Source of the DNA: Rhodamnia argentea
Taxonomy: Eukaryota; Streptophyta; Magnoliopsida; Myrtales; Myrtaceae
DNA length: 64,000 nt
Direction: 5' to 3'
Assembly (NCBI RefSeq): GCF_020921035.1
Contig: NC_063150.1
Coordinates: forward strand, 33,961,826 to 34,025,825
Part shown: piece by piece, positions 10,128 to 27,167 of the stretch
Layout: each line of letters begins with the position of its first letter
Numbering within the stretch: the stretch's first letter is position 1
Notes under the pieces: model-generated
Databases searched by the model: none
What the model was told of the DNA's origin: nothing
The model's input: only the letters and a program-made list of their open reading frames with translations
Made by a program: the position numbers and the translations under genes

Positions 10128-12391
10128 CTAAACGTGTCTATTCAATTCAAAACTTCATGTTCCATTTTTCATTTTTTCTTTCAAAAAAAAAAATACAGCC
10201 ATTCTTTCTAATTGTTTCCAAGAGAGATCCTGAAGAAATATCAGAATTTCTTTCTACTATTCTCATCGAGACATTATTGTATCATGAGGATATTTTTCGA
10301 AAATCATTAGCAACGTTGTAAGGTAAATAAATCTAGTGTTATCACGTCTCAAAGTTTGATTCCATTGTTCATCCCATTCGCCAAATTTCCCAACAATGAC
10401 TCCCCAGATTATGGAATCTGAACTCCGTGGATGGATCTCTCTTTTTTTCTTAAAATGAAGACCCCATCGAGGGCATAATTTTGGCATCGATGGTGTCCCA
10501 CTGCCAATCTCCGTCATTGGCTTTCCCTTTTCTTTTCTATTTTTACTTTTTGAGAAAGACCAATCATTGGACAATTTTTTTTTTCTTTTTTGGATCGAAT
10601 CATTCGACAACTTTCAATAGAGCTTTCTTGGGCTAGTTTTCAAAACTTCCATATCGATGACTACACATACATTCCTTGTTCTTTTTTGGAAGTAAAGAAA
10701 CATTGCGTGCGGCATGCTTTCCTCTTCCGCTTCTCGAAGTTACTCCCCAACCCCATCGATCCTCATACCATTTGCTGCCTAGAATCTGTTGGGAGAACGT
10801 CTAGGATGATTGTTGTTTCTCAAAGCATTGATGAGGCTAGACTTTAGGCAACAACGACCCCGGTACTGTGGTTTTTGAATCTTGATAAGTAAGATCGCGT
10901 CCGTGACATCCATCGATCGTCTGCGGTTTCGACACGGACTTCAGAAACAATTCGGTAAGTTTAATAAACGAAGCAAAGGGCAATAAGATGAACCTATCCC
11001 AAAATATTCAGTCTGATTAGATATCACAAACTGAAATGGATAACTGAAACTTTAAATCTAGTCATGCGCATGTTAACAGCACCGAATTCCCTCCATCCGA
11101 ACAGAAAACGACAATAATCAGTCACTTGACCTTCCCTGGCGTGAAGACAAAAAGCCATTTATATCATGTCTTTATGTCTCAATCTGCATCTGATAGAATA
11201 TCGCAAAGGAAATGCTGGTTCTGTGATATTCTTCTCCCACTTCAGAGACATCTTCACCTGTCATAGGCCAGTGTAATGAAGAAGAAAGCCCTAAACCTAG
11301 ACAATTATATATATATATATATATATATTCTTCCTGGCCCAGGCAATGGCTGGCCTCACCGTCTACCCCGGATGAACCTGGAAAAAAAAAGGCAAAGAAA
11401 AAAAGAAAGGACGAAAATAATAAGACTAGAAAAATATTATTGAAAAAAATATTCACGTCAGGTCTAGCCGTGCCATGTAGGCCATCCGGCGTTCACATCA
11501 GCAATATCCATCCAAACTTAGTTGGAAGGATTGAATTGACTTTAGATAAAAGGATTTAGGATTAAATTGACATCATTAAAAAATTTAGGCCTAAATTGGC
11601 ACCAATGCACCAGGAAGAAATCCGTATCAAGCACAAGCATGCTCTCATTTTGACAATTTTCAATAGTGTTAAGCGTCCCACGTCTTATTCAAGAGAATGA
11701 ATTACTTTTATAAATTAATCAAATTAAACCGCTTCAATTTCAGCAAAGCATCTTGTCCCGATATGCATGCTCTTCAAAGATACGGAAAGAGATATATGCA
11801 AATCCGAAATAGCGAGGCCGTGGACGTAGGAGTCTTTAGTAATCATTTGTAAAAATGTGTTCTCCGAATATTGGAAAGCTTGGGATCTAAAGTCCAAAAC
11901 ATCTGCTCGAACCTGTCAATATATCTAATTGGACCCACCTTCACTCAAAAAGCTTAGGCTAATGAATTATGAGTCAATCAAGATATATTAAATCGATCCG
12001 CACCACATCAATTCTTCGATATGAGATTTTTTTTTTATATTAGGGTATGTTAATGCCACGTATTTAAATGATTGTAATAATTTCATTTCATAGAATTTTT
12101 CAAATGTGCTGTATTTTGTCGCGTGTTATTTAGTTAATTCATGAAATAAACCCCCCAGCGTCATAACCAACTCTTTGAAATAACGAACCCCAACTTCGTT
12201 TCCATCGCCGCCCTCGGCGCAATCCGGAGTTCCGGACCTCCCGAGGCTCCCCCTGACACGCGCCCTCGCCCATTTATGTACTCTGCAAAAATTCCTCCTC
12301 CCCGACCATTTCGTTCCTGGCTTCACTCCTCTCTTCTTCTCCTTTCTTCGCATTCGGTTCGGGCACCTGCGAGCTCTCGCCGGGATCTCTC

Positions 12392-24823: not shown

Positions 24824-27167
24824 TTATGAGAAGAACTTGTAATCTTTTGATGAAATGATGATCTGCCTGAGGCCACCAATTGGTCCGAGAATCACCAGCA
24901 TCATGCCGAGTATGATGCAAATCTGAAGTGCATAAAAGATGAAGCTAAATCAGCAAAGCGACCACGAATTTGCAGTCAAAGTAAGTGAGTATGTATCCAT
25001 GAGAATTTGTGCATACCCAGTTGGTACACCATGACAAGCTGAATTTCCTCGGTTTGTAGATACAGAGCCACATGATGCAGGGGAGCTATAGAAATTGGAC
25101 AGATATCAATTTTCTGATGTATCTGCTAAATTTTCTAAGAGAGCGGTTCATAATAGATGAAGCGATTTTGCTTTCACTTACGAAGTAGGTTGTCGGAGCT
25201 AGAGCAAACCCGCCGAAAAAGCCGAGGAGACTACCAAAAAAGGGGATGCAGATACCGATGAACATTGTGAGTGCTGAGCAAGGAAGACCAGAAAAAATAG
25301 TTAGTTGCATTGGAGAAAAACAGCTCCGACTTTTTCCCGGAAACACCCACTTAAGTCCCTACTTTCAGATTCAGAAGTTCCATGCATAGAAAACAGGTAA
25401 GCTTTTCGAGTCACTCACCGACATAAACTGTACGCGTGACGAAACGGAGAGTGAAGCAAGGCCTGAAGCGCAATTGCTTGACGAGAAAGGTCTCCATCAT
25501 GTCGAAAACTGGCATCGCGTAGATCTGTACCCACAAAGCGTCGCGGAGTGTAAGGAAAATAGTCCTTAGCATGGGACGCAATTTTTTTCAACAGGAAAAA
25601 AAAAGCCGAAGCAAATCATTGGGGCCTGCTCACCTGGTAGCTACCAATGACATGGATGACCACAAACAAGTTAGAAGCAGCAATGAGCCACTTGGGCTTT
25701 TGCAGAGTGATGAGGATGTTGTCATCCACTGTGTTGCCAAACACGTAGTAGCCGATTAGGGCCACGGGGAAGTAGCAGATGGCCACAACGATGTAGGCGA
25801 ACACCACGCCTTTCCACATGGGCTTCTTCGAGGGTTTCTCTGGAGTGGAGGGAATGGTGGCCTGGATCTCCAGCACCACGTTGTGGCCAGCATAAGCGAA
25901 GGCAATATCGCCCAGCGCGCTGAAGAAGTTGAACACTACGGTTTGTTTATCTCCCTTTAACGAATAGTCCACATCTGGTTGCACTCCCTTGTGCAGAGAT
26001 GCTGTCCAGGCAATGGTGGAGTAGCTGTGTGCACGCAAAAAACAAATAAGAAAGATGCAGGCGCGGGGTTGATGTAGATTACCAGACTCCTGAAAAATAT
26101 GTCAAAGACCCTTCGTTCCTTTCTTGATGCACAAGCTAAAGCTCATATGGTCCGCTCTCGGAAGTTGAAGGTTTCTCTCATGAACAAATATAGAGACTAG
26201 CTTGTTTTTGTGCCTTACCTGAGGGACATGACTGCAGCAGCCAAGGAGACAACAGAGATGGAGTTGAAGTTGGGGAGGTGGGATAGGACAAAGTGGATGG
26301 AGGCAAAGATCATGATGAAGTAGGAGGTCCTGATGGGCTGGCAATCGGCGCAGAGAACGGTGTGGATCTTCTTGATGGACTTGCCTCCAGTGATCATGTA
26401 CACGATGCAGACCCCGACATCGACGAGCAGCTGCTGAGGGACCACAATCCACAGGCCCAGCTTCTCGCCAAAGGCGTGTTGGCCCAGCTCGTGGTACCGG
26501 TCGAACCTCTTCCCCGGCACCATCTCGTGCATCTCCACCATCTGCCACAGCGTGTACAGGGTGATAACCCATGATAGGATGAGCAGAGTCACACCAGGTC
26601 CCCTGCAATGACATCCCGTCATCCAATGTCCAGAAAAACAGAGGATAAAAAAAAGGGAAAGGGACAATGTCAAGACAGAGCAATCCAGATGTAAAATGAT
26701 GTCATTTGTTTGCTGCATTTTGCTCGTGCATCGGTGGGGATCAATCGAGCCAAAAGTTCTAGATAGAGCAACCTAGATGTAAATTTGAGTTTCAAGCTGA
26801 TGAACTGTAGATTATGTAAAGAATTCACATCCCGGCATCAAGGATCCTGAAGATTTTTCAGGTCAAAAGCTACCTTTGGAAGAAAAGGATCATGCCTAAT
26901 GGGCTTTCTTAAGGTGCAACTGCCTATGGTAATGGTCGTAAAAGACAGAAATCAAAACTGAAGAACCGGTCATGGGAGGCAGTTAAATAATTACCATCCA
27001 AGCTCAGCCATGGAATAAGGCAAGCTGAGGACGCCGGCACCGACCATGGCGGTGACATTGTGGAAGGTTGAGTACCACCACTTGGCATTCCGGGAGGATG
27101 TGATGGGAAGCCAATCGTCGATCGCCTTCTCATCGTATTCATCATTCCGTGGCTGATCCTGGGCCAT
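24824..27167 (-). CDS. LHT1: LHT-type amino-acid transporter (lysine/histidine transporter-like)
   Basis: Seven exons on the minus strand: 27167-26995, 26602-26219, 26024-25634, 25524-25419, 25273-25182, 25085-25017 and 24922-24824. Phases close to 437 residues, the usual LHT length. The start gives [20 protein letters not shown], a short acidic cytosolic tail; an upstream in-frame Met exists but is not LHT-like. Signature segments are [60 protein letters not shown] and [16 protein letters not shown], with about ten hydrophobic helices. The family imports neutral and basic amino acids with protons at the plasma membrane. The sequence is closest, from memory, to LHT1/LHT2, so the exact paralogue number is tentative. 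It lies tail-to-tail with the broken reductase copy; a 3' remnant of a second LHT lies at 16.76 kb. Confidence 0.94.

Follow-up and report, generated by a model that had tools for sequence, protein, structure and literature searches.

A 64,000-nucleotide stretch of Rhodamnia argentea chromosomal DNA (hereafter the window), nuclear to judge from its gene content, contains two diverged copies of one block, units A and B, in which a 3-oxoacyl-ACP reductase and an LHT-type amino acid transporter are arranged tail to tail. The outcome is complementary: unit A keeps the reductase gene intact beside a broken LHT remnant, and unit B keeps the LHT gene intact beside a broken reductase. We hypothesize, with a probability of about one half, that a block of ~5 kb was duplicated from the B side and that the LHT part of unit A was partial from birth or became so soon afterward.

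Table 1. Features of the duplicated region, with positions in the window
Feature	Position	Strand	Basis
Unit A, homologous to unit B	12150..17125	.	BLASTN and base-level alignment
3-oxoacyl-ACP reductase gene (KAR), intact, 11 exons, 328 aa	12392..16007	+	GT-AG at 10/10 introns, open frame
LHT remnant, exons 5–7 only	16757..17125	-	Alignment to LHT gene of unit B
Likely hAT-like element (outer) with TIR-like ends and 8-bp TSD GTAAGTGC/ATAAGTGC, lacking a long open frame	17126..18459	.	TIR+TSD score
Nested hAT-like element, inside the outer one, TSD GGTTTAAG/GGTTTAAA	17404..18306	.	TIR+TSD score 18; runner-up 17
PPR-protein open frame between the units	21080..22330	+	Open-frame list, Pfam
Unit B, homologous to unit A	22653..25274	.	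BLASTN and base-level alignment
Reductase pseudogene	22856..24068	+	Alignment to unit A, tblastn
LHT-type amino acid transporter gene, intact, 7 exons, 437 aa	24824..27167	-	GT-AG at 6/6 introns, open frame

Extent of the Duplicated Block

Units A and B are collinear across exons, introns, and the intergenic spacer both by BLASTN and by base-level alignment, the latter spanning reductase introns 8–10, the intergenic region, and LHT introns 5–6. The BLASTN pieces are 15068–15816/23231–23954 (77.4%, E 4e-158), 15924–16995/23981–25064 (72.4% over gapped columns, E 3e-171), 12307–12437/22768–22901 (E 4e-12), and 12155–12234/22656–22734 (E 2e-9). Local alignment of the 3′ block scored 5342 versus at most 1337 in 8 shuffles; this score comes from shuffle tests with loose gap costs, and the negative results given below rest on separate alignments. 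The collinearity of exons, introns, and spacer supports one ancestral block as the parent of both copies. The duplication proposed in the earlier note is thus borne out by collinear identity that extends outside exons and lies far above chance.

The same note held that introns and flanks match as well. This is correct for the introns, for the intergenic spacer, and for the ~240 bp 5′ of the reductase ATG, where the homology reaches its left limit (~12,150/22,653); the flanks upstream of that limit scored 74 and 82 versus a shuffle maximum of 105 (n = 20), and given that these outer flanks score no higher than shuffles, the statement applies to the spacer and those ~240 bp. The right limit (17,125/25,274) is the junction of LHT intron 4 and exon 5. 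Unit B starts near 22.65 kb, close to the proposed position, but its homologous part stops at ~25.27 kb and not at 27.2 kb.

Intact Genes and Their Broken Counterparts

The unit A reductase matches the short-chain dehydrogenase families PF00106 and PF13561, contains the SDR family motifs TGxxxGIG, NNAG, and YxxxK, and finds its best PDB match in 1edo, a ketoacyl-ACP reductase (E 1.6e-129) whose source we take to be Brassica napus. Residues 1–62 include 13 Ser/Thr and one acidic residue and resemble transit peptides, so that the protein is probably targeted to the plastid. Gene structure, Pfam families, structural match, and motifs agree on an intact plastid-type reductase. The corresponding reductase of unit B contains three stops in exon 1 when read from its ATG and lacks exons 2–7. 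Its exon 8 has lost ~87 bp at the 5′ end, leaving ~48 bp at the 3′ end, and exons 9–11 are retained, with a 1-bp deletion in exon 10; relative to unit A, ~2.3–2.5 kb is absent. When reductase exons 2–8 were sought in the gap of unit B by alignment against shuffles, only a weak match to intron 1 was recovered (107 vs. 99 in shuffles), through which the 5′ homology may reach ~12.76/23.21 kb, and a reductase tblastn search over the whole window gave matches with E < 0.05 in units A and B only. Because exon 1 and parts of exons 8–11 persist in order, the unit B reductase is likely to have once been nearly or fully complete.

The LHT coding sequence of unit B comprises 1314 nt, stop included, and its product matches Pfam Aa_trans (PF01490) with E 1e-108 over residues 27–421 of 437; the nearest solved structures are remote (AUX1, E 3e-6). 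The domain match itself is to Aa_trans, and the LHT subfamily name, adopted from the earlier note, is putative. Aligned to unit B, the LHT remnant of unit A shows gaps of 20 bp (in exon 5) and 61 bp (over intron 5 into the beginning of exon 6); its exon 6 also carries a 1-bp insertion, and its exon 7 acceptor reads GG in place of AG, although the frame of exon 7 is still open. The earlier reading of all four partners, namely an intact reductase and a remnant of the LHT 3′ end in unit A and a broken reductase and an intact LHT-type gene in unit B, therefore stands.

We searched the window for the LHT exons that unit A lacks. Exons 1–4 with their introns scored 93 on each strand at 18.46–22.65 kb versus a shuffle maximum of 132 (n = 20). 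At 8–12.16 kb the best score for exons 1–4 was 115 versus a shuffle maximum of 107, but this match is an A-rich stretch, and at 1–8 kb (134 vs. 121) and 30–64 kb (139 vs. 128; 8 shuffles) the matches are A-rich or CT-repeat sequences; these slight excesses outside 18.46–22.65 kb look like low-complexity matches. At the protein level, a tblastn search with the whole LHT over the entire window had a best E of 0.049 outside unit B and the unit A remnant, all matches with E < 0.04 falling in these two places. Pfam searches of 20 of the 64 stop-to-stop frames and of two other frames in the window revealed no additional reductase or transporter.

Transposon-Like Sequence and the Spacer between the Units

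The outer hAT-like element begins exactly where LHT homology ends (17,125/17,126). Its TIR+TSD score of 18 was the highest among right ends tested at 17.2–22.65 kb (the next was 15) and was reached in none of 60 shuffles, the shuffle maximum of 17 occurring several times. We consider the element likely to be genuine, but not certain, and its far boundary moderately supported. Given that no open frame of at least 90 aa was found inside it, the element is predicted to be non-autonomous; short TIRs and the 8-bp TSD make it hAT-like, its family assignment being putative. In the outer and in the nested element alike, the two copies of the TSD agree at 7 of 8 bases. The sequence to the right of the outer TSD does not match LHT intron 4–exon 4 (68 vs. 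a shuffle mean of 61 and maximum of 76), and because the DNA past the TSD does not resume this part of the gene, the LHT truncation seems to be older than the insertion.

The PPR gene also lies between the units, which, like the placement of the hAT-like sequence, is as the earlier note described; its first exon may be represented by a further open frame at 20313–20663, upstream of the main one. A larger tandem unit that includes the PPR gene was considered but is not supported. A tblastn search with the PPR frame upstream of unit A gave a single match (E 1.6), and at the DNA level 20,200–22,650 aligned to 1–12,160 with a forward score of 113 and a reverse score of 128, the latter a marginal excess over the shuffle maximum of 116 (n = 8). 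The ankyrin frames gave only chance-level tblastn matches upstream of unit A. Comparison of 18,468–20,300 with 1–12,155 yielded a reverse-strand score of 824, which corresponds to an inverted repeat: a spacer piece upstream of the PPR frame (19,439–19,794) matches 2,930–3,301 in inverted orientation (72%), and a second short match (4333–4381) follows the latter in the same inverted order. This inverted pair is possibly another old local duplication. The presence upstream of unit A of a relative of this spacer piece shows that other old rearrangements have affected the flanks of both units, and the block visible today may be smaller than the original unit.

These observations bear on the possibility that unit B was derived from unit A as the original locus, or that a larger segmental event took place and its flanks have since been replaced, either of which would be compatible with both a partial copy and reciprocal loss. 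Transposon-like sequence lies directly at the edge of unit A, the spacer contains an inverted counterpart to sequence on the upstream side of unit A, and neither flank is datable. However, an intact LHT gene in unit B and only an LHT 3′ end in unit A make unit B the simpler source, and the chance-level matches of the PPR and ankyrin frames upstream of unit A are a further point against it; we regard this possibility as unlikely.

Other features lie in the window. Two ankyrin-repeat open frames (28601–29938 and 30931–31761, minus strand), perhaps one gene, are located beyond the LHT 5′ end. A second PPR-protein open frame is at 36252–38018 (minus strand, 589 codons stop to stop), a zf-RVT domain, likely a retroelement remnant, is encoded at 41645–42541 (minus strand), and a tRNA-Val (AAC) gene is at 49828–49901 (minus strand). 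A separate tandem duplication, 60362–60983/61008–61695, consists of pieces that are 94.5% and 85.7% identical and is less diverged than the reductase–LHT block.

Divergence and Selection since the Duplication

Noncoding sequence in the 3′ part of the block differs between the units by 0.231 ± 0.011 (~77% identity; K2P 0.279; 1414 sites), and the 5′ part is more diverged (~70% identity; K2P 0.411 in 195 sites 5′ of the ATG). An assembly artefact, with the two units representing alleles or a mis-joined haplotig, is contradicted by this divergence: ~23% in noncoding sequence, together with large structural differences, is far above allelic variation. Nothing in favor of this explanation was found, and we give it practically no weight.

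In reductase exon 1, K2P ranges from 0.40 to 0.56 by codon position (172 aligned columns). Third codon positions have K2P values near that of noncoding sequence both in reductase exons 8–11 (0.331) and in LHT exons 5–7 (0.333); the values for first and second positions are 0.186 (172 sites) and 0.228 (148 sites), respectively. First and second positions of the LHT have changed nearly as fast as noncoding sequence (median ratio 0.82, interval 0.53–1.19). Under an assumed constraint of 0.2 in the working copy, the 95th bootstrap percentile limits the share of its history that the broken copy spent under constraint to about 0.10 for the unit A LHT and 0.37 for the unit B reductase; with a constraint of 0.3 the limits are 0.23 and 0.55. 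These estimates use 148 and 172 sites, leave out reductase exon 1, and assume equal neutral rates, and the model is rough given that the bootstrap medians are negative. Changes in the reductase protein are asymmetric: of 83 codons compared with 1edo as an outgroup, 55 are equal in units A and B, 20 are changed in B only, 2 are changed in A only, and 6 are unpolarised. The LHT remnant of unit A carries no sign of past selection since the duplication. Codon-position divergence and codon polarisation together indicate that both dead parts lost constraint early, and that the unit A reductase stayed under selection.

Origin of the Complementary State

The earlier note proposed that a tail-to-tail pair was duplicated and that the two units subsequently lost one gene each, a different one in either case. 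Block duplication and the complementary outcome are observed, and a once complete reductase in unit B is likely; a whole LHT gene in unit A is putative, given that exons 5–7 alone are recognizable there. Duplication of a complete convergent pair followed by reciprocal loss agrees with the convergent order preserved in both units, with the ordered reductase exons retained in unit B, and with unit B itself, which demonstrates that a decaying copy can lose kilobases. Since unconstrained DNA vanishes at such divergence, as it did in unit B, LHT exons 1–4 and both flanks of unit A could be post-duplication deletions. Set against this are the absence of a convincing match to LHT exons 1–4 near unit A, the end of the homology within the LHT gene, and the lack of past constraint on the LHT remnant. 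We consider reciprocal loss a serious contender at somewhat less than even odds and slightly prefer a copy in which the LHT was partial at birth; our slight lean rests on an LHT remnant that bears no sign of past selection. An argument against the partial copy is that the hAT-like element would have landed within 2 bases of the truncation, an awkward coincidence.

Under the partial-copy scenario that we favor, the starting point would be a reductase gene and an LHT gene lying tail to tail on a plant chromosome. Local duplication would have copied ~5 kb, beginning ~240 bp before the reductase ATG and ending within the LHT gene. The unit B reductase, beside the intact LHT, would have been released from constraint early and subsequently lost ~2.3–2.5 kb, the unit A reductase surviving. 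The LHT part of unit A would have been truncated at birth (our slight preference) or soon after, would never have been detectably selected since, and would later have been flanked by the hAT-like insertion. A more speculative consequence, to which we assign a very low probability, is that duplication and loss of the original shifted a housekeeping fatty-acid-synthesis gene by ~8–10 kb and that a transcript of the gutted reductase relic might still overlap and influence the LHT 3′ end. Retention of the opposite copy in sister species would make the pair a record of divergent resolution, on a small scale, between two linked genes.

Relation to Known Systems

Arabidopsis locus numbers generally follow map order. 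At1g24360 is described as a 3-oxoacyl-ACP reductase (PMC3507003, PMC7650296) and At1g24400 as AtLHT2 (PMC3737465), numbering which hints that a reductase and an LHT gene are close neighbors in Arabidopsis too; this would make their association old. The LHT gene in the window may be an orthologue of LHT2. Our literature search found no paper naming both At1g24360 and At1g24400, and none on a lysine histidine transporter with 3-oxoacyl as adjacent genes.

In fractionation, or divergent resolution, alternate members of a duplicated block are lost from each copy. The block described here resembles this in its alternate loss and differs in that only two genes are involved and the copies are ~8–10 kb apart. 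Reciprocal loss after tandem duplication is reported for BAAT/BAATP1 in mammals (PMC6934887). As in that account, a local duplication came first and one of the resulting copies was then lost; there, however, it is one gene or its duplicate that is lost, in different species, whereas here two neighbors in one genome survive in opposite copies, and completeness of the unit A LHT at birth is putative. Partial gene duplicates are a described structural class (PMC2728529), and the LHT of unit A is like them in aligning to part of a longer gene; unlike the duplicates as outlined in that source, the unit A piece adjoins a complete neighboring gene and is itself broken.

Judging from these two reports, partial duplication is already on record (PMC2728529), as is reciprocal loss following a tandem event (PMC6934887), and the reductase–LHT block is a new instance. 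It is a tidy but ordinary case of duplicate decay that leaves the current view of gene duplication unchanged. Its lesson is that a partial copy may mimic reciprocal loss, and it provides a compact example of duplicated neighbors resolving to one working copy each.
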